A stretch of DNA of 33,056 nucleotides from a bacterium HR30 (GTDB lineage Bacteria > Desulfobacterota > Binatia > HRBIN30). Below the pieces are notes generated by a model, which was given only the letters and a program-made list of their open reading frames with translations, did not search any database and was not told the origin of the DNA. Where the stretch lies: contig BEIG01000029.1 of assembly GCA_002898795.1 (NCBI GenBank), positions 1 to 33,056 of the forward strand. Reading direction: 5' to 3'. A program made the position numbers and the translations under genes. Shown here piece by piece: positions 20,205 through 31,951 of this stretch (position 1 is its first letter; each line of letters starts with the position of its first letter).

Positions 20205-21351
20205 ATGCAAAACCGTTCCGCAGAAACGCCGGTCTTCGACGAATCCCTGGTGAACCAGGTGCAAGAGTTAGCGCATCGGATCAACACCCTCGGGAGCTAT
20301 CTTTGACGTAGCCGGACGTGAACGTCGCCTTGCCGAGCTCGATGCCGAAGCAGCAGCACCAGAATTTTGGAACAAGCGCGAACGAGCACGGGAGGTGCAA
20401 CGCGAGCGAGCTGAGATTTTGCGGATACTCGAGGCGTGCCGGCAGCTAACTCGCCAACTCGACGACGCGCGAGTCTTACTAGAGTTCGCTCGGGAGGGCG
20501 ACACCGAATCTATCAGCGAGCTCAATCGCGTTGTCGCGCAACTACGGGAACAACTGGAGCAACTCGAGCTCCAGCGGCTGCTTTCCGGCGAGCATGACAG
20601 CGGAAACGCGATCCTGACAATTCACCCCGGGGCAGGCGGGCTCGAGGCCCAAGACTGGGCGGAGATGCTGCTGCGTATGTACTTGCGCTGGGCGGAGCGG
20701 CGGGGTTTCAAAACCGAAATTCTCGACTTGCAACCGGGGGAAGGCGCCGGCATCAAGAGTGCTACCGTTGCCGTCGAAGGACCCTACGCTTACGGCTACC
20801 TAAAGGCGGAAGTCGGTGTGCACCGCTTGGTGCGCATCTCCCCGTTCGATGCCAATGCACGCCGCCACACATCTTTTGCTTCTGTGTTCGTTTACCCCGA
20901 TCTCGACGAAGACATCGAGGTTGCCATCGACGAAAAAGACTTGCGGATCGACACCTTTCGCGCCAGTGGCGCTGGCGGACAGCACGTCAACAAAACCGAC
21001 TCAGCCGTCCGCATTACCCACATTCCTACGGGCATCGTAGTGACGTGCCAAAACGAGCGCTCCCAACATAAAAACAAGTCAATGGCCATGCGGATTCTGC
21101 GAGCCCGACTCTATGAGCTCGAGCTGAAGAAGCGCCAGGAGCAACTTGCTGAGCTAGCGGAGTCGCAGCGAGAAATTGCGTGGGGCAACCAAATCCGCTC
21201 GTACGTGCTGCAACCGTATCGCTTGGTGAAAGATCACCGCACCGGCGTCGAGGTCGGCAACGCCGACGCCGTTCTGGACGGCGATCTCGATGCCTTCATC
21301 GAAGCGTATCTGCGACAACAAGCCAGCCAATCGCCACCTGGTTCGAGGTAA
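20205..21351 (+). CDS. prfB: Peptide chain release factor 2, expressed by programmed +1 frameshift
   Basis: Release factor 2 recognises UGA and UAA stop codons and triggers peptide release. Frame 0 starts at ATG 20205, runs 33 codons and hits TGA at 20304-20306. A +1 shift after CTT reads GAC from 20305 and continues to 21351, giving about 381 residues. Family marks include the stop-codon reader tripeptide SPF in RISPFDANARRHTS and the catalytic GGQ loop in ASGAGGQHVNKTDSAVR. CQNERSQHKNKSMAM and the C-terminal helices follow. The frameshift is the usual autoregulation: low RF2 makes the ribosome pause at UGA and slip. The sequence between the two frames is not a mutation. The DnaQ/GIY-YIG gene follows by 35 bases. 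Confidence 0.96.
20292..20307 (+). promoter_or_regulatory. prfB programmed +1 frameshift site
   Basis: GGGAG at 20292-20296 acts as the internal Shine-Dalgarno-like element. It is followed by CTAT and then the slippery CTT TGA C (20301-20307), the same TATCTTTGAC core as in E. coli, where the element is AGGGGG. The SD-like match here is weaker or shifted compared with E. coli, but the spacing to CTT is kept. Confidence 0.93.
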
Positions 21352-21386
21352 ACGGATTCTTCGCACACGAAGAAGGCCGAGGCGGC

Positions 21387-23273
21387 ATGCGCGACAAAAT
21401 TTACACGTACCTCCAACAACGGCCGGCGGGCGCCAGCGTCGAGGAGTTACTCGACCTCATGTTCACTTACCCCGGGGCCGATCCGGAGCTGCGCCCCTAC
21501 CTCGTGCAACTCCTTCTGGAACCTGACCCAAGGTTTGTCTGGGACCCACACCTCCAGCGCTGGAAGCTCAGAGAATTTGCTACGTTCGGCCAAGCTGTCG
21601 ACGATGCCACGTTTGTCGTTGTCGACATCGAGACCACCGGCCTCACCCCCGATGCCGATGGCATCATGGAGATTGGGGCCGTGCGGGTGGAACGTGGGCG
21701 CATCGTGGGCCGCTTCGAACAACTGGTGCGCCCGAGCAAACGCCCGCCCCCCTTTATTGTTCATCTCACCGGCATCACTTGGGCAATGTTGCGGGACCAA
21801 CCCGCGCTCGCAGAGGTCTGGCCTGACTTTGTCGCCTTCGTACGCGATGGGGTACTGGTCGCTCACAACGCCAGCTTCGATCTGAGCTATCTGAACTTGG
21901 CCTCGCGCATCTTCAGCGGAGCCCCCCTTGCGGAAACGTACCTGTGCACGCTCAAACTCGCCCGTAGGCTGGTGCCAGAAACACGCCGGCGCGGGCTGGA
22001 TTCCTTGGCAGAACTTTTCGGATTACGCCTAGAAGGGCGCCATCGAGCCCTAGGGGATGCCCTCATCACCACGGAAATTCTCTTCCATCTCCTCGAGCGC
22101 GCAAAGCAGAGGGGGTTGCATCGCGTAGACCAAATCCTTGCCTTACAGCACGAGGGCCGCGACGGCCGACCTTTCTTTTGTCCGTTGCCTCGCGCGGTCG
22201 TGGAGCAGCTACCGAATACGCCGGGCATTTACCGTTTTTACAACCAAGCCAACGAGCTCCTGTATATTGGCCGAGCGAAAGATCTGCGCCGCCGCGTTTC
22301 TTCGTACCTCAGCAACTCCGAACACCATTCTCCGAAAACACTCGACCTGATTCGTCACATTCACAGCGTCAGTGTCGAGCAGTGCCCCTCAGAACTGGAG
22401 GCAGCGTTACGCGAAGCCGAAGAAATCCGCCGCGCCAAACCACCTTACAACCAAAGGTCGAAGCACCTGCCACAAATCGCTTACTTGAAGATCGGCCGGG
22501 AACGGGATTTCCCTCGCATATCCATTACGTCGCGCCCCGCCGGGCCTGCACAGCTACTCATCGGGCCTTTACGCTCGAGGCACGAGGCCGAGCGACTGCT
22601 TAAAATTTGGTTACGGATTTACGGGCTACGCACTTGCCGCGGGGAACTTGTGCCCGCACCCGAAGCAACACCGTGTTTCCAAGGTCAAACTGGGCTTTGC
22701 ACCGTGCCCTGCGCTGCCCGTATCGAACCCGGCGCGTATCAAGCGCGGGTTCAGGCCCTATTGGACGACATTGCCAGCAACGGTGAAGCCACTCGAAACT
22801 ACCTCCTAGTGGAACGGGATCGCCTCGCCCAACTCGAGCGCTTCGAGGCGGCACAACGAGTCCACGAAGACTTCGTTTTCTTCGAACGTCTTTGCTCTCG
22901 CTTTCGTGTTCTAGGTTGGCTGAACTCGGAACAAAACTTTTTGCTGCTTTTGCCAGAGGAGCACCGTGCCGCACTGCGCGCGTATGTGGTGCTCGGGGGA
23001 GAACTCGTAGCCCGAACGGTGATCTTTCATGGGAGCGAACTCGAGTCCTGGATGCTCCGCTGTGCGCTGGACTCCCCGTGTCCCAAGCGGCAGTTCGACC
23101 GTGTTGACGCCAGCGTGATTTTAGCCGCGTGGCTGCGCGATCGGCGCGTCAACAGCGGGGTGCTCCTTCGGCTACCGAAGGCAAACACAACATGGCCCGC
23201 CACCCTGATGGAAGAGTGGCGGGCCACATGCGAACAGCTTCTTGCTGCTCCGCAGCTAACACCCTCCGCCTGA
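21387..23273 (+). CDS. DnaQ-like exonuclease fused to GIY-YIG (UvrC/Cho-like) nuclease
   Basis: A 628-residue two-nuclease protein. Residues 1-65 form a small helical, winged-helix-like head. A DEDDh 3'-5' exonuclease covers ~75-240, with Asp80/Glu82 in VVDIETTG, Asp165 in HNASFD, and His219/Asp224 in HRALGD. A GIY-YIG domain follows (~277-356), with GIY at 280-282, YIG at 293-295, and Glu343 before KPPYN aligned with the catalytic Glu of UvrC. Then come Cys417, Cys430, Cys438 and Cys442, spaced almost like the four Fe-S ligands of E. coli UvrC, and a UVR-like helix pair (RDRLAQLERFEAAQRVHEDF). The RNase H-like nuclease and HhH parts of UvrC are absent. Similar exonuclease/GIY-YIG fusions are known in actinobacteria; a repair role is likely but the substrate is unknown. 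Start ATG 21387 with GAGG just upstream. Confidence 0.92.
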   Translation: MRDKIYTYLQQRPAGASVEELLDLMFTYPGADPELRPYLVQLLLEPDPRFVWDPHLQRWKLREFATFGQAVDDATFVVVDIETTGLTPDADGIMEIGAVRVERGRIVGRFEQLVRPSKRPPPFIVHLTGITWAMLRDQPALAEVWPDFVAFVRDGVLVAHNASFDLSYLNLASRIFSGAPLAETYLCTLKLARRLVPETRRRGLDSLAELFGLRLEGRHRALGDALITTEILFHLLERAKQRGLHRVDQILALQHEGRDGRPFFCPLPRAVVEQLPNTPGIYRFYNQANELLYIGRAKDLRRRVSSYLSNSEHHSPKTLDLIRHIHSVSVEQCPSELEAALREAEEIRRAKPPYNQRSKHLPQIAYLKIGRERDFPRISITSRPAGPAQLLIGPLRSRHEAERLLKIWLRIYGLRTCRGELVPAPEATPCFQGQTGLCTVPCAARIEPGAYQARVQALLDDIASNGEATRNYLLVERDRLAQLERFEAAQRVHEDFVFFERLCSRFRVLGWLNSEQNFLLLLPEEHRAALRAYVVLGGELVARTVIFHGSELESWMLRCALDSPCPKRQFDRVDASVILAAWLRDRRVNSGVLLRLPKANTTWPATLMEEWRATCEQLLAAPQLTPSA

Positions 23274-25961
23274 CTGACTTCGCCGCCGGAACCAAACAAG
23301 GGCGGCTATTCCGAGTAAGAACCACCCCGGCGTAGAGCTGTTCGCCGACACCAGTTCACACCCGCCGCTACGACTAACCCGAGTGACGATCTCTGGGGTC
23401 GGAGTCGCCGGCAGCGGGGTCGGAGGTGTGGGCAAAGGAGTTGGCGGTGCCTGACAAACACCCGCCAAGCAGAGGCTCGTGATGCAATCGGAGTTTTTCT
23501 GGCACGTCTCCCCTACGTCGAATGGAGGAACGCAGAATCCGCGGAATCCCGTGATGTCACACCGCTCGCCCGGTTCGCATTGCTCGACCTCGCAGCAAAC
23601 GTTGTGCACACAGAAGTCCGACTCGCATTGTTCCGGACGCGAGCACGTATCGCCTATGCGGCGGCGCGGCGTCGGCGTTGGTGGAATTGGCTGGCAGAAA
23701 CCGGCGTTGCCCGGAACACGGCACGACTGCCCCGGCGGGCACTCCTGCTGATTGCAGCATACGCCCCCCTCGATCGTGTTACAGAAGAAGAAGGACTCGC
23801 ATTGCGCAGTGTCCGAGCACGAGCCACCTCGCGGAACTTTGGTCGGAGTGGGCGTGGGCGGAGGATTATCACACACACCTACGCCCCCTCCGGTTGCCCG
23901 ACAGAAACCGCTCTCACAGTCATCGTTGCTGTCGCACTCCTGTCCGTTAGGCCGCTTGAGCTGGCAAGTACCGGCAAACCCCGGAATACTACACGACTGC
24001 CCCTCAGGGCAAAGGCGCTCGCGGCAACAAACACCGTCCACGCAGAAGCCGCTAATGCACCGCGCATCCGAGGTGCACGGGAATCCAATCGGCAGCGGCG
24101 TTGGAGTGAAAATCGGCGTTGGGGTCGCCGTTGGTTTGGGCACGCACTGGCCCTCGCGCCCGGGTTGCCCACATGTTTCGCTACTCGAGCACTGCCGTTC
24201 GCAACAGAACCCATCGATGCAGAAAGACGGATCGCACTGGGTTGGATCATCGATGCTGGAGCAACATTGCGCCGGATCGGTGCACGGGCTTCCCGGAGGT
24301 AGCCGAGTGGTGCATGTACCTTCGGAGCCAGGAATGTTGCAAGCAGCGTTCACCGCACACTGCGGGTCGCTGCAACACACCCCATCGGTGCAGAAACCCG
24401 AGGCACATTGCTCTGGCGCACTGCACGGGACACCATTGCCCGCAGGTGGTCCGCAAGTTCCGGTATTGCAGTATTGCCCCTCCGGGCAAGAAGCCGAGGC
24501 GCAGCAGAAACCATCCACGCAACGTCCGGACTCGCATTGTGCACCCAGCGTACAACGGCTGCCATTAGGCGCTGGCGGCCGACAGACGCCATCCAAGGTG
24601 GTCGCCCGCGGAGGCAGAATGTCGCATCGCTCCCCCTGCGGGCAGCTTGGAGTGCTACAACAAGTGTTGTTTACGCAGTTGCCAGACTCGCACTGCCTCC
24701 CAACTATGCATGCCGCGCCATTCGGGCGGGGCGGTACCTCGCGGGCACGCAACACCCGAACGGAATTGTTCGAAAACTCGGCGACGGCAATATCTGGAAT
24801 GGCATCCCCGGTAAAATCCATCGCTGCGATGCGGCGTGGACCCAAGCCAACGATCACTTGCGTACCGAACTCAAAACGACCGTCGCCCAACCCGGTGTAA
24901 ACGTTCACGAAGCCGGCAGTCACTGCGTTGTTGTCCGCTGCTCGCGTGCTGAACGACACTGCCAGGTCCTGCCGGGTGTCCAAGTCGAAATCCGCTGCCG
25001 CAATATCTTGCGGAGTGCAAACCACGGCCACGCCGCTAATCCTCGACGGACAAGAGAGCTGTAAAGGCGGCAAGACACGAAACAGCGGACTCTCTCCGCC
25101 AATCAAAATCGAGATCGAAAATTGGTTCACGGTGCGAATGTCGCGATTGACCACGGCAAGGTCGATCCGACCGTCATTGTTGAAATCCCCTTTAGTCATG
25201 CCAATCGCGTCGTTGCCCACCACGTACCGCTGGGGAACGACCCCACTAAACGTACCCGTGCCCGTGTTCAGAAAAACCGACACTTCGTCGGTGCCGCGGG
25301 TTCCGGTATCGAGCAAGATCACGTCGTCCAACCGATCACCATTCAAGTCGTGAGCCAAGATCACCCGCGGGTTTGCGTTCGCGGTCAGGGGAAAGGTTCC
25401 AACCCTGCTCAAACCCCGATTTCCTCCCTGGTTGACAAGAACAGTGAACGAATCCGCCGCCCCGTTCGCGGTTGCCGCGTCCAAACGCGTTCGACCGTCG
25501 CTATCAAAGTAGCCGGTAGCCACCCACACCGGCCCGCGCCGGGTTACGTCGAACGGCTGGGGTGTGGCAAACCGCCCGTCGTTACGACCACCTGACCCTT
25601 CGCCCCGGATGATAAAGAGCTTGCCGACGTTCGGGTCGGTAACGGCAATGTCGTTAATGTTGTCTCCGTTAAAATCTCCAACGGCCACGCCCCGAAGCAA
25701 GGTGCCAACTGGGATTTCCACCGCGGAAAGGAACACCCCCGTTGGGGTACCAAACAGAACGGTCACGCGATCGCGAACTGTACTGGATACGACAACGTCG
25801 TTGATCCCGTCTCCATTGAAGTCGCCACCCGTGACGTACGTGGGGCCATTTGGAACCAGACGTTGTTCCCCGGGGATGAAAGAAACTTGCGCGGACAGAG
25901 AGCCCACCCCCACAAACCCGACTGCGACAAGCGCGACAAACCCACTAATCGTACGCCTCAT
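23256..25961 (-). CDS. Exported FG-GAP beta-propeller plus Cys-module protein with C-terminal sorting-like tail
   Basis: A 901-residue cell-surface protein. The signal peptide ends in GSLSA|QVSF. Residues ~40-400 hold seven FG-GAP/VCBS motifs with Ca-type loops (DFNGDGINDVVV, DFNGDNINDIAV, YFDSDGRTRLDA, DLNGDRLDDVIL, DFNNDGRIDLAV, DFDLDTRQDLAV, DFTGDAIPDIAV), consistent with one seven-bladed propeller. Then nine Cys-rich modules follow the pattern C-x(6)-C-x-S-G-x-C-V-D-G-x-C-C, mostly with CPxGQxC and GxC (two are shortened). Thr-Pro linkers (PTATPTPIFTPTP, PTPTPTKVP) separate some of them. The end has a Cys (SGGCELVS), a hydrophobic helix (GWFLLGIAALVWF) and RRR, like a MYXO-CTERM-type sorting signal. 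GAGGAGA precedes the ATG. Function is unknown: adhesion or binding fits the parts. Its 3' end overlaps the convergent nuclease gene by 18 bases. Confidence 0.9.
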   Translation of the reverse strand: MRRTISGFVALVAVGFVGVGSLSAQVSFIPGEQRLVPNGPTYVTGGDFNGDGINDVVVSSTVRDRVTVLFGTPTGVFLSAVEIPVGTLLRGVAVGDFNGDNINDIAVTDPNVGKLFIIRGEGSGGRNDGRFATPQPFDVTRRGPVWVATGYFDSDGRTRLDAATANGAADSFTVLVNQGGNRGLSRVGTFPLTANANPRVILAHDLNGDRLDDVILLDTGTRGTDEVSVFLNTGTGTFSGVVPQRYVVGNDAIGMTKGDFNNDGRIDLAVVNRDIRTVNQFSISILIGGESPLFRVLPPLQLSCPSRISGVAVVCTPQDIAAADFDLDTRQDLAVSFSTRAADNNAVTAGFVNVYTGLGDGRFEFGTQVIVGLGPRRIAAMDFTGDAIPDIAVAEFSNNSVRVLRAREVPPRPNGAACIVGRQCESGNCVNNTCCSTPSCPQGERCDILPPRATTLDGVCRPPAPNGSRCTLGAQCESGRCVDGFCCASASCPEGQYCNTGTCGPPAGNGVPCSAPEQCASGFCTDGVCCSDPQCAVNAACNIPGSEGTCTTRLPPGSPCTDPAQCCSSIDDPTQCDPSFCIDGFCCERQCSSSETCGQPGREGQCVPKPTATPTPIFTPTPLPIGFPCTSDARCISGFCVDGVCCRERLCPEGQSCSIPGFAGTCQLKRPNGQECDSNDDCESGFCRATGGGVGVCDNPPPTPTPTKVPRGGSCSDTAQCESFFFCNTIEGGVCCNQQECPPGQSCRVPGNAGFCQPIPPTPTPRRRIGDTCSRPEQCESDFCVHNVCCEVEQCEPGERCDITGFRGFCVPPFDVGETCQKNSDCITSLCLAGVCQAPPTPLPTPPTPLPATPTPEIVTRVSRSGGCELVSANSSTPGWFLLGIAALVWFRRRSQSGGGC

Positions 25962-26224
25962 GAACCATTCTCCTCGTCTCGATCGCGACCGGCTTACCAA
26001 ATTCTTTTGCCTCGAGCCATTCCAGATTGCGGGCTCCTTTCTTTAACCCCGCACCAGGTTTGTCAAATAGAAAGATTCCCAACAGTCGAATGAGCCTTTA
26101 GCGCACAACTACCGATGTAAAGCAAGCGCCTTTGTGGCCACCCTGGAACGCCCTGGAGTAGCCGTGCTAGTGGCTCCCCAACACTCGTTCCAACCACGCC
26201 TTCGGGGCGACAAGGAGGTGCCTC

Positions 26225-28375: not shown

Positions 28376-28758
28376 CCTCGTTCCTCCTCCGTGGCAATCG
28401 GAAACGCTGCCCACGTTAGAAAGCTCCAGTGAGCAAAGTCAACGCCACGGTTAGCTCGGCAAATTGGGCTGGCTCCGGTTTTGTTCCCTTCTCCTTTTGA
28501 TTCCGCGGTACTTATCGTGCGAAACCGTGCGCAATGTCGTGGTGTAGCCCAAGCGCAAGCACCGCCCGATTGCGGACGGGACGTCCGCACTCCCAGGCGA
28601 CGCGTGCTGGGAGCCCAGGTATGCCGGCCTGCATCCAACTCCGGGTTTTTGCGGACCAGACCTCTGCGCTCCCAGGCAATGCCGGGGAGAAGGGTGAACG
28701 TCACTCGCGTTTTCAGTTGGTGACCCGTAAAGTTCCTGCCCATCTTCTTGAACGACCG
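28376..28758. other. Intergenic stretch before the beta-helix gene
   Basis: About 380 bases between the divergent aldolase start and the likely start of the beta-helix gene. It holds the repeat pair listed separately. A plus-strand frame is open from 28534, but its first 75 codons cross the repeats and look non-coding. The promoters of both genes should lie here; I do not see clear -35/-10 boxes. Confidence 0.5.
28572..28677. repeat. Two imperfect 27-bp repeat units with palindromic core
   Basis: Units at 28572-28598 and 28651-28677 match at 22 of 27 positions (both start GCGGAC and end CTCCCAGGC), with a period of 79 bases. The first unit contains the inverted pair GCGGAC/GTCCGC. Just downstream CTCCCAG (28590-28596) pairs with CTGGGAG (28607-28613). 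Both units are followed within 35 bases by ATGCCGG. This looks like a dispersed intergenic repeat of the REP/BIME kind that can fold as a hairpin, but only these two copies are in the window. Confidence 0.6.
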
Positions 28759-31086
28759 ATGGCCATGGCAAAAAATCTTCAAGTGGCGAGAACGGAGCTG
28801 CCTGCTTTGTCGATTGGTGCGGCGCTAGCCCAATGCAGCCGTGCAAGCGCTCAACAATGGAATAGCCAGGGCTCTTGTGCTCGCGTAGCGCACACGGCGC
28901 ACAACAAAGACCAATTCTGGGGCTACCTAATCACCACCACGCTTGCTTTTGGCTTGCTCTCGAACATTGCCGTGGCCGCCCCCCAAGCGAGGGCGAGCGC
29001 AACCGAGCTCTGCCCCGCAGCGGCCGTCCCTGCTTGGCCCGAGGTTGCCGCACTGTTCGAGTCGCCACCGCGACCCGAGTGTTTCGACTGGAATGGCGAC
29101 GGCACCGTCTCCGTGGCCGACTGGGTGGTTGCGATCCTCCTATTGGGGGCAGGGCCTTCTCCCACTCCATGGCTCGGTACCCCTACGCCAACGAACACCC
29201 CCACGAACACGCCAACCCCATCGGCAACCCCGACCCCATCGAATACACCCACGCGAACACCCACTCCAACACCTTCCCGCACACCAACGCAAACCCCTAC
29301 CCCCACCATTACTCCCACACCGCCACCTTGCCCTCCAGATGGTGCTGCTAGCGTGGAAATCGACTTCCAAAACGGCGAGCTTCTGCCCGATGCCACGGCG
29401 CTGGTGAGCGGCGAGCTGCTGTTCCCCAGTTGCAACACGGATTCACCGCTGGCCACGAACTACTCGGGCCAAGTGTCGGCGACAGGCACGGCTAGCTTCG
29501 AGGGTCTCGTGCCAGGGGTTTGGATTCACCACGTCGCCGTCCTCCAACCTCCCACGGGCCAAGTGCAACATCGTCAAGGGCTAGTCGTTGCCGGTCCGAC
29601 ACCCAACCGTTTGCGCTGGCGCCTGTTCGCGTCGGTGTACACGGTCACGACACCCGACGACCGAAACGACTCTGCGCTGAGCCTCCGTGCTGCCCTGGAG
29701 CGAGCTAATACCTCGCTCGCTCCGACCCTGATTCGCTTCGACGATGCCGTCTTCCCGCCCGGACAACCGGTAACTGTCTTACTCCGCTCCGCTCTGCCAC
29801 CCTTGACTGGCGGCAACATCACCATCGACGGCTACGACGCCGGCGGAAACGCGGCTTTTCGGATCATCGATGCCAACGGTGGTGCCTACCCAGCGTTAGC
29901 CATCCGCAGCGCCCGCAATCACGTGCTCGGTTTAACGCTTCGTAACGTAGGGGGCACCGATCGCGATGTGGTATCGATCGCCGGACCAAGCGCGTTTGGC
30001 AACGCGATCGAAGACTGCCTCATCGAGGGTTCAACCACGGGCGACGCTGTCGGTATCGACGACCGAGCAGGGCGCGACTTTGCGGCTACGGCAAACGTCA
30101 TCCGCAACTCGGTGATCCGCGGTGCTAACGATAAAGGGATCAAGGTGACCACCGGGGCACACGCTCGTGTGGAGCGAAACTGGGTGATCCACAATGGCAA
30201 TGGCGGAGTTCAAGCCACCTTGGGCGGCAGGGTACTGGTGCGTGACAACCTGATCGAACACAACGAAGGCTCGTCCGCGCAAAACGGGATCGCTGTCAAC
30301 GGGGCACACCCTGCGAGTCCGGAAGACCCCGCACTGCTTCTTGCCGACGGCAACCTTGTGCGCCGTAACGCTGGAGCCGGCGTTCTCGTTCGCGCCCAAT
30401 CTGCTGCTTACCTGCGTGCGAACGTTTTCGCTCACAACGCCCGCGACGGCGGCCGCGCGCAGGCCGTTGACGCAGCGGGCAGCCCAGCAGTGCGAGCAGA
30501 CGAGAATGCGTTTGTCTGTAACCGCTCTGCCGGCTTTGTCGTAGAGTCGGACACACAAGTTGATTTCGGAGGCGGGGCGTTTGGGGGAACGGGCGGAAAC
30601 CTGTTCGCATGGAACGGCTCGGGCCAACCCCGCCGTAACTTCGTGCATGCCGCACGCACGCCGCTTTTCGCTCGCGGAAACTATTGGGAACGTTGCACTG
30701 CCCCCGGCAACTGCGAGGGCGTCGTGATCGATCAAGACATCGCCGGCAACACAACCCAAGCAGCGTTGACCCCAGCCCTTGCAGCGAGCACCGCTCAAAC
30801 ACCTCTCGTCAGGGCGGTGCGGCCGCGCGTTGCTCAAGCCGGAGAGCTGGTGCGTGTTATCGGTGCAGGATTCTTTCCGCAAACCTCGTCGTTCGTTTGC
30901 GCGGGGGAAGGTGGGTCCTGCGAGGACGCTTTCTGCGTGACGGTGAACGGAATTCCCGCCACGGTAGAAGCGGCAACGCCAACGAGCGTTTTCCTTCGAA
31001 TGCCAATGACTTGTTTTGGGCCAAGCACGCTCGAAATACGAACGCCCGAAGGTTCAGCCCTCACCGAGTACTGCATCCCCGATTGA
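28759..31086 (+). CDS. Exported right-handed beta-helix protein with dockerin-like, Thr-Pro linker and IPT parts
   Basis: A protein of about 775 residues. An internal hydrophobic signal (~52-74, LITTTLAFGLLSNIAVAA) follows an unusual basic leader, so the true start may be later than ATG 28759. After the signal comes one dockerin/EF-hand-like loop (CFDWNGDGTVSVADWVV), then a ~55-residue linker of TPT repeats (coded at 29155-29330). A beta-sandwich follows (~190-290), then a right-handed parallel beta-helix (~300-650) rich in GNxIxDC, NVIRNSVIRG and NGGVQA turns typical of pectate-lyase-like proteins. The end is an IPT/TIG-like domain (RAVRPRVAQAGELVRVIGAGFFP). It may bind or cut polysaccharide, but no catalytic residues can be named. 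It is convergent, 13 bases from the CX4CH lipoprotein. Confidence 0.85.
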   Translation: MAMAKNLQVARTELPALSIGAALAQCSRASAQQWNSQGSCARVAHTAHNKDQFWGYLITTTLAFGLLSNIAVAAPQARASATELCPAAAVPAWPEVAALFESPPRPECFDWNGDGTVSVADWVVAILLLGAGPSPTPWLGTPTPTNTPTNTPTPSATPTPSNTPTRTPTPTPSRTPTQTPTPTITPTPPPCPPDGAASVEIDFQNGELLPDATALVSGELLFPSCNTDSPLATNYSGQVSATGTASFEGLVPGVWIHHVAVLQPPTGQVQHRQGLVVAGPTPNRLRWRLFASVYTVTTPDDRNDSALSLRAALERANTSLAPTLIRFDDAVFPPGQPVTVLLRSALPPLTGGNITIDGYDAGGNAAFRIIDANGGAYPALAIRSARNHVLGLTLRNVGGTDRDVVSIAGPSAFGNAIEDCLIEGSTTGDAVGIDDRAGRDFAATANVIRNSVIRGANDKGIKVTTGAHARVERNWVIHNGNGGVQATLGGRVLVRDNLIEHNEGSSAQNGIAVNGAHPASPEDPALLLADGNLVRRNAGAGVLVRAQSAAYLRANVFAHNARDGGRAQAVDAAGSPAVRADENAFVCNRSAGFVVESDTQVDFGGGAFGGTGGNLFAWNGSGQPRRNFVHAARTPLFARGNYWERCTAPGNCEGVVIDQDIAGNTTQAALTPALAASTAQTPLVRAVRPRVAQAGELVRVIGAGFFPQTSSFVCAGEGGSCEDAFCVTVNGIPATVEAATPTSVFLRMPMTCFGPSTLEIRTPEGSALTEYCIPD

Positions 31087-31099
31087 AGCTCAGCAAGCG

Positions 31100-31951
31100 C
31101 TAGTCGTCCGGGGCACCACGCGCGATCCAATCCGTTAACGCCTCCAACCATTCAGGTTCCAGGCGTGGGCCCGACAACGGCATCGGGCTACCCCATCGAG
31201 GGTCGAAGCTGCTCAACTTGAGCTTGGTCAGCAGAAAGCTCGCCTCGGGCTGCCCCGGAGCAACCAGTAGCCAGCCAGACTCGCGGGCGTGTGCGTTGGT
31301 CGGAACAGCGCCAACGAGTGCTTGGTAAGGGTTGGTCAGATCGAGCCCAGCCGCGCGTGAAGTCCCATCGTGGCAGAACGCCACAGCGCACCGGGGGCCA
31401 AATATCTCCGCACGCAAGCGCGTAAACGAGCTGGGTGTTGGAGTACTACGTCCGCTGGGCGTAACTGTAGGCGTGGGAGTAGCGCTCGGTGTTGGCACAG
31501 CCACCGGATCTTCGCCTCGGGGGGCACCCGACAAAATCCAAGCTTCGATGCGCGCAAGCGTATCCTCGGACAGTGGGGCTGCGCCTAACGGCATGCGGCT
31601 TCCCAAGCCTGGGCCCGGCCCAGTGAGTTTGATCCACAGGAAGCTTTGCTCCGGCGCATGCGGTGTCACCCGTAGCCAGCCGGCTGCGCGAGCCGCAGCA
31701 TTCTCCGGAGCAGCGTTCACCAACTCATCGTACGCGTTCGGTCCTTCCAGTACCAAACCGCCGGCGGCAACTCCGGCGGAGTGACATGGCCCGAGTGCAC
31801 AATGGCGAGCGAAGATTTCACTTTGCAACGCGGCAAATGTTTCACCGCCCGACACAACTGAGGGAGGCCCATCACCGGCACACCCCGACAGCATGCCGGC
31901 AACGCACACCCCAACCGCGAACTGCAGCCAATACGGCGCTAGGTAACGCAC
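31100..31951 (-). CDS. Lipoprotein with two CX4CH cytochrome-like domains
   Basis: A 283-residue predicted lipoprotein (signal ending LSGC, lipid Cys24). It is made of two homologous ~105-residue domains separated by a Thr-Pro linker (~152-174). Domain one has HCALGPCHSAG (Cys51, Cys56, His57) and SRMPLG (Met120). Domain two has RCAVAFCHDG (Cys188, Cys193, His194) and SPMPLS (Met257). Each thus has CX4CH plus a Met at a similar distance, the pattern expected of a c-type haem with His/Met ligands, though with four residues between the Cys instead of two. The IFxxxC..CH pattern recurs in myxobacterial and planctomycete exported proteins. Haem binding is inferred. It starts with GTG at 31951 without a clear ribosome site, 32 bases after the small Cys/His protein. 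Confidence 0.85.
   Translation of the reverse strand: MRYLAPYWLQFAVGVCVAGMLSGCAGDGPPSVVSGGETFAALQSEIFARHCALGPCHSAGVAAGGLVLEGPNAYDELVNAAPENAAARAAGWLRVTPHAPEQSFLWIKLTGPGPGLGSRMPLGAAPLSEDTLARIEAWILSGAPRGEDPVAVPTPSATPTPTVTPSGRSTPTPSSFTRLRAEIFGPRCAVAFCHDGTSRAAGLDLTNPYQALVGAVPTNAHARESGWLLVAPGQPEASFLLTKLKLSSFDPRWGSPMPLSGPRLEPEWLEALTDWIARGAPDD

Follow-up and report, generated by a model that had tools for sequence, protein, structure and literature searches.

The window, by which we mean the whole 33,056-nucleotide stretch of DNA that was analysed, carries on its minus strand a gene for a predicted surface protein with a signal-peptide-like start, an FG-GAP propeller region, a long Cys-rich stalk and a C-terminal tail (Table 1). 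The open reading frame listed by the program (23256-26000) starts from TTG; the ATG at 25961 is to be preferred, since the corresponding Met opens the ortholog from G002, a genome of the same genus, and the gene coordinates given in the earlier note were correct. The signal-peptide-like start is clear by eye and is kept in two orthologs. Pfam searches matched the propeller region to FG-GAP_3 (1.3e-27) and FG-GAP (2.8e-14), and six Ca loops fit the search pattern, at residues 47, 96, 205, 259, 324, and 382, with a degenerate seventh loop (YFDSDGRTRLD) at residue 151. The earlier note had read seven Ca-loop motifs as one complete propeller; the seven loops stand, six of them canonical, whereas a single seven-bladed propeller is plausible but unproven, as the AlphaFold2 model of the protein (mean pLDDT, 56.6) is too weak for counting blades. 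The best Foldseek matches of this model are chains that we take to be beta propellers, and with so weak a model they are poor evidence.

Table 1. Features of the surface-protein gene, in positions of the window
Feature	Position	Strand	Basis
Surface-protein gene, 901 aa plus stop	23256..25961	minus	Start backed by the G002 ortholog (L195)
Putative N-terminal signal peptide, residues 1-24, MRRTISG...SLSA/QV	25890..25961	minus	By eye
FG-GAP propeller region with seven Ca-loop motifs, residues 25-409	24735..25889	minus	Pfam PF13517/PF01839, motifs, weak all-beta model
Nine Cys-rich modules with Thr-Pro spacers, residues 413-840	23442..24725	minus	Sequence reading
Thr-Pro spacer preceding the tail, residues 841-865	23367..23441	minus	Sequence
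C-terminal sorting tail (GG-Cys868, hydrophobic helix, RRR), residues 866-901	23259..23366	minus	TIGR03901 over cut-off; shared tails

The stalk contains nine Cys modules by reading, and 66 Cys fall within residues 413 to 865. Seven of the modules have a CC step and two are short, with four Cys each, so that the earlier description of nine modules with a CC step was right in its count and slightly too strong as to the step; the Thr-Pro spacers are present as had been described. The modules faintly resemble EB and Dickkopf_N modules, both below the Pfam cut-offs, and no PDB sequence relatives of use were found for the surface protein. As a guess from the domain type, a disulfide-braced Thr-Pro stalk probably carries the propeller, which would bind a ligand (a sugar, the matrix, or another cell).

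A plus-strand gene at 21180-23273 encodes a fused RNase T exonuclease and GIY-YIG nuclease, and its last 18 bases overlap the end of the surface-protein gene on the opposite strand. The plus strand at 28534-31086 encodes a large protein with a dockerin-like stretch, a long Thr-Pro spacer, and a NosD/beta-helix region but without the sorting tail, which indicates that Thr-Pro spacers are not confined to tailed proteins. On the minus strand at 31100-31951 lies a gene for a small lipoprotein-like protein made of two similar Cys-containing halves joined by a Thr-Pro spacer, one half of which matches PSCyt1 weakly.

The tail of the surface protein has the layout S-GGC-ELV...-WFLLGIAALVWF-RRR and is thus tripartite, consisting of a Cys motif, a transmembrane helix (judged by eye), and an Arg-rich C-terminal end. 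The curated NCBIfam model for the MYXO-CTERM signal (TIGR03901; cut-off, 20 bits) scores 21.3 bits on the protein (E value, 2.6e-4) and 27.5 bits on the same tail in a six-frame search of the genome, so the tail of Cys, hydrophobic helix, and RRR pointed out earlier is real and beyond chance. A 15-base DNA pattern for the tail codons gave no matches, as expected of a protein motif. The S-GG-C motif is kept in two same-genus orthologs, in which tail identity is 52 and 46%, compared with 94 and 91% for the propeller region.

Other proteins of the source genome (G000; 3.73 Mb in 211 contigs) carry the same tail. TIGR03901 gave nine matches there at E values of up to 10, three of them over the cut-off and one of these the surface protein's own; six of the nine, again with the surface protein's included, combine a Thr-Pro or a Gly-rich stretch, the Cys motif, the helix, and Arg. 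The match on C106 was rejected on reading as not a tail. Two profiles were then available for wider searches: A2, from 19 of 21 candidate tails (L009, which had been read in a wrong position, and L020, whose end was overlong, were omitted), and A3, which adds 20 tails for a total of 39 rows. Both contain the surface protein's tail and other tails of the order to which the source genome belongs, so that matches to those are not independent, whereas TIGR03901 is independent. The A2 profile gave 17 matches in the source genome (six in the profile and eleven read anew), of which 14 were judged real and three false; matches on C10, C164, and C32 were rejected on reading. The 14 real matches lie in 12 open reading frames, the surface protein's included, and a shared tail of the kind that the earlier note had proposed to look for is therefore found in about a dozen open reading frames of this genome. 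A fifteenth tail was seen by eye at the end of the open reading frame on C118.

A Pfam scan of nine other tailed open reading frames found five that pass a cut-off, comprising three FG-GAP proteins (one of which is a subtilase as well), a PD40 propeller, and a matrixin; the remaining four have no family over the cut-off (three without a match and one with Cys-rich repeats below the cut-off). Most MYXO-CTERM proteins of Myxococcus xanthus are described as predicted adhesins or hydrolases (PMC11980579), and because that cargo is similar, the FG-GAP, subtilase, and matrixin cargo found here counts for a sorting system.

Among the class genomes compared, the tail is restricted to one order. The comparison set held 39 related genomes of the class, 15 from the source order and 24 others. 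TIGR03901 exceeded its cut-off in all 15 order genomes and in none of the 24 others, and the A3 profile, at E values of up to 0.001, gave 139 matches with the same distribution (15 of 15 versus 0 of 24). Below the cut-off, at E values of up to 1, TIGR03901 matched in 34 of the 39 class genomes and 6 of 14 control genomes; in the controls, both this model and the protease model match weakly, never over the cut-off. Weak TIGR03901 matches outside the order that were read (L027-L032 of the set L027-L041) were not tails.

A script reading of the region following each match found a Cys in all 139 order tails. The residue before the last Cys is G in 104 tails and S in 26, and V, I, or L stands two places after this Cys in 125, a pattern that the A3 profile itself favours. 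The C-x-C arrangement occurs in 16 of the 139 order tails (and, by reading, in 11 of the 39 A3 tails), compared with 28 of the 30 Myxococcota tails read, an uneven comparison in that those 30 were taken from 132 matches in four genomes and are among the best-scoring ones per genome. Single-Cys G-C-x-[VIL] tails predominate in the order, in contrast to C-x-C in the Myxococcota tails read. The tail of the surface protein has a single Cys. The remark in the earlier note that GGCELV takes the place of the usual Cys cluster was accurate, and the predominance of single-Cys tails in the order supports its suggestion of a lineage-specific variant of a MYXO-CTERM-like system.

The source genome has two genes over the Pfam cut-off for CPBP proteases and one weak match. 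The candidate cognate protease, encoded on C8, scores 55.5 bits on PF02517 (CPBP, Rce1-like; cut-off, 22.4). Its best NCBIfam matches are the myxosortases, all below their cut-offs: MrtP (1.2e-31; 114 bits against 250), MrtC (5.8e-28; 100 against 195), and MrtX (1.6e-21; 79 against 180), with MrtZ at 65 against 325. On Mrt_core (NF040914) it reaches 95 to 98 bits, just below the cut-off of 100. Among the protease types that had been suggested earlier, the MrtX type fits this protein, which is nearest to the myxosortases though under their cut-offs. Neither of the two outcomes that the earlier note had named as refuting its proposal, a tail confined to this one protein and a genome lacking a candidate protease, was thus obtained. 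The CPBP gene on C45 was discarded as a candidate, as its product reaches 33 bits on Mrt_core and reads HGVFD in place of the HxxxN motif.

Across the class, Mrt_core scored at least 90 bits in 14 of the 15 order genomes (the exception being G014) and in 1 of the 24 others (G016), with the 90-bit line drawn after the gap had been seen (the next score is 42 bits); scores above the curated cut-off of 100 bits were found in 8 of the 39 genomes, all in the order. Fisher's test of protease against tail over the 39 class genomes gave 1.4e-8, which is no true probability, since the genomes are related. The co-occurrence inside the class is largely that of one clade and so represents few independent events.

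Alignment A1, which comprises 15 proteases (14 of the order and that of G016), has E110, E111, R115, H152, H187, and N191 invariant in all 15, and these residues fit the EExxxR and HxxxN motifs reported as the catalytic motifs of MrtX (PMC11980579). The model of the C8 protease is confident (pLDDT, 94.1) and places EExxxR and HxxxN within helices. Its two best Foldseek matches are 6u0o_A (probability, 1.00; E value, 0.029) and 4cad_F (probability, 0.96; E value, 0.23), from the SagB-SpdC complex and MmRce1, respectively, in agreement with a CPBP fold; the 6u0o_A chain is presumably the CPBP-like SpdC. No PDB sequence relatives of use were found for the protease profile. A maximum-likelihood tree was made from the named loci except L084 and L093 (25 of 27), together with eight of the 15 proteins in A1; the contigs of the remaining seven correspond by length to those of named loci. 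In this tree, the 15 proteases group together with support of 81/97, which is not a strongly supported fork, and lie apart from the Polyangium enzymes. This placement does not suggest a recent gift from Polyangium-type myxobacteria.

The genomic setting of the protease gene is largely conserved. Of the 15 loci (L042-L056), 14 have a PilT-type ATP-binding motif downstream of the gene, on its strand and at a distance of approximately 790 to 1,020 bases, and 9 have an RlpA-like motif upstream. In the source genome, the neighbours on C8 are RlpA and two PilT/PilU-family ATPases, all over the cut-off, and a PmbA/TldD-like protein under the cut-off; the order of genes is rlpA-mrt-pilT-pilT (L102:5912-11100).

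The analysis establishes the anatomy of the tail, its sharing among proteins, its confinement to one order among the compared genomes, and its co-occurrence with a protease with intact catalytic motifs in a genome that also encodes a type II secretion system (T2SS) secretin (GspD; 567 bits against a cut-off of 351). The T2SS lends no specific support, because it is common in the class (over the cut-off in 34 of the 39 genomes). As judged from these sequences, the surface protein is likely, with a probability of about four in five, to be a substrate of a myxosortase-type sorting system of one order of "Candidatus Binatota". In the published MrtX model, a tailed protein is exported by Sec and retained in the inner membrane, its Cys is lipidated, the CPBP protease cuts after the Cys, and the T2SS takes the product to the surface (PMC11980579). 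By analogy, the surface protein would be exported by Sec through its putative signal peptide, and its C-terminal helix would hold it in the inner membrane with the Arg-rich end inside. The invariant Cys of G-C-x-[VIL] would be lipidated, the C8 CPBP intramembrane protease may cut just after this Cys, as M. xanthus MrtX would predict, and the T2SS may then carry the lipid-anchored protein to the surface.

The protease might instead belong to the rlpA-pilT locus as a CPBP enzyme with a general housekeeping function, acting for example in pilus or wall assembly, with its match to the tail reflecting shared ancestry. Its constant place beside pilT in 14 of the 15 loci would be expected of such an enzyme, as would the presence of the pilT motif beside the protease gene of G016, a genome with no tail found, and the co-occurrence of tail and protease rests mainly on one order. 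However, the best curated relatives of the protease are enzymes of Cys-type sorting signals, and the pairing recurs elsewhere, although the link is weak there: outside the order, tails over the cut-off were found in 4 of the 22 genomes that have a protease hit and in 0 of the 22 that have none (one-sided Fisher's test, P = 0.054), and the tails of these four genomes (G049, G121, G211, and G276) look right on reading. A housekeeping role is on this evidence unlikely. When the limit was relaxed to an E value of 0.02, MYXO-CTERM matches were found in 6 of the 22 genomes with the protease and in 1 of the 22 without; that sole match, in G044, was found on reading to be without the Cys motif.

Slightly less probable again is that the tail is a plain C-terminal membrane anchor, in which the helix and Arg hold the protein without any cut and the CPBP protease does something else. 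A helix with a positive end is by itself a sufficient stop-transfer anchor, no tail was seen in open reading frames of at least 200 aa across 13.5 kb around the protease gene, and two genomes break the pairing of tail and protease. G014 has 12 tails and no protease hit, and the gene may simply be missing from its fragmented assembly of approximately 1,200 contigs; G016, which is 74% complete, has the protease and no tail found. Against this, a plain anchor needs no conserved Cys, yet the Cys is present in 139 of 139 order tails, with V, I, or L at position +2 in 125 (the latter being favoured by the profile), the orthologs retain SGGC though about half of the tail has changed, and the tails pass a curated sorting-signal model. 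Processing by another class of enzyme, either a rhombosortase acting on a GlyGly-CTERM-like tail or an exosortase acting on a PEP-CTERM-like one, was raised in the earlier note and would suit the Gly-rich motif before the helix in many tails, but it is very improbable, as MYXO-CTERM is the only NCBIfam sorting-signal model to match the surface protein at E values of up to 10 (neither GlyGly-CTERM nor PEP-CTERM was among the matches) and a myxosortase-type protease tracks the tails across the order.

Some proteases related to that of the order may have other partners. Five genomes of the same phylum and other families (G039, G068, G078, G104, and G113) have no MYXO-CTERM match at E values of up to 0.02 despite Mrt_core scores of more than 124 bits, and their proteases may serve another, undescribed tail. 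A phylum-wide search of 395 genomes with the A3 profile, in which at most 18 candidates per genome were scored and negatives were not used, gave, among the matches listed, seven genomes with a profile match, five with the protease and two (G133 and G394) without a protease hit; the matches of these two stand as unread profile matches.

Myxosortases were reportedly discovered in silico by Haft (J Bacteriol, 2024). The pathway was shown in 2025 in M. xanthus, where the tag was called specific to myxobacteria, and MrtX was shown to cut its tag in Escherichia coli (PMC11980579). Compared with the MYXO-CTERM/MrtX system of Myxococcota (TIGR03901, NF040593; PMC11980579), the system described here is alike in its tripartite tail with invariant Cys, helix, and Arg end, its CPBP glutamic intramembrane protease, the starts that by eye resemble signal peptides, the similar cargo, and the T2SS secretin. 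It differs in being found in "Ca. Binatota", in having mostly one Cys (G-C-x-[VIL]) instead of C-x-C, and in a protease that groups separately from those of Polyangium and whose gene belongs to an rlpA-mrt-pilT-pilT locus. Several open reading frames of the order also have an internal tail and a second signal-like segment, whereas internal motifs are described as rare for MYXO-CTERM (PMC11980579). The JDVT-CTERM/MrtJ (NF033192) and Synerg-CTERM/MrtS (NF040589) systems likewise have CPBP proteases, the Synerg-CTERM system being likened by the name of its model, and JDVT-CTERM shares the invariant Cys (PMC11980579). The C8 protease is nevertheless far under the MrtJ and MrtS cut-offs (41 against 75 and 55 against 130, respectively), and MrtJ and a single JDVT-CTERM protein are reported to form a two-gene neighbourhood (PMC11980579), whereas the order has many tails. 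The GlyGly-CTERM/rhombosortase system (PMC3237569, PMC11980579) is alike in its C-terminal tag, with surface display via the T2SS only proposed in the present case; rhombosortase, in contrast, is a rhomboid serine protease, and the GlyGly-CTERM model has no match to the surface protein.

Most tails in the order are terminal. Of the 139 matches, 131 lie within 35 residues of the stop codon, one lies at 42 residues, and seven run on for at least 166 residues. In six of these seven (G000 C118, G000 C202, G001 C23, G003 C15, G008 C30, and G013 C151), a second hydrophobic segment, signal-peptide-like as judged by eye, follows in frame within approximately 30 residues, with a further domain behind it; in the remaining one (G004 C204), the sequence past the tail looks out of frame. 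The A2 profile, at weaker E values, added two similarly built internal tails on C169 and C18 of the source genome, which brings the number of such open reading frames to eight (that on C118 lies at L096:2180-5323 and that on C169 at L192:2005-5229). Four of the eight (C118, C18, C169, and that of G008) have a second tail at the end, those of G001, G003, and G013 end without one, and that on C202 is cut short by the end of its contig. Among the second halves, the ones from C202, C169, and C18 belong to one family and a stretch of approximately 56 residues is common to the ones from G003 and G013, so the eight open reading frames amount to about six separate cases; the remaining second halves have no mutual likeness. 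No stop codon lies between the halves. At their junctions, C18, C169, and C202 lack an in-frame ATG but contain in-frame GTG codons, and C118 contains an in-frame ATG. The rare internal MYXO-CTERM motifs of M. xanthus include that of MXAN_5598 (PMC11980579), and among the Myxococcota tails that were read, L238 is internal as well; no useful papers about polyproteins or internal sorting signals were found in a literature search. If they are translated whole, these open reading frames could tentatively be viewed as surface polyproteins, with the helical hairpin being cut from both sides by the myxosortase-type protease and signal peptidase I. Were this so, cutting of the polyprotein would release two proteins in a fixed ratio, with one or both of them anchored.

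"Ca. Binatota" is ranked as a phylum in the NCBI taxonomy, is described as yet uncultured, and has 16S sequences that some databases place among Deltaproteobacteria or Myxococcota (PMC8262859). No papers naming MYXO-CTERM together with Binatota were found in a literature search, and the words "CTERM" and "secretion" did not occur in a word search of the Binatota genome paper (PMC8262859). The tails and matching protease in this phylum indicate that the pathway may be wider than the myxobacteria. In M. xanthus, the two adjacent Cys of TraA were mutated together (PMC11980579); the order would be a natural variant in which one Cys suffices, which bears on the question of which Cys is lipidated. 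The rlpA-mrt-pilT genes offer a compact locus for study, and the tails predict surface proteins for a phylum that has yet to be cultured.
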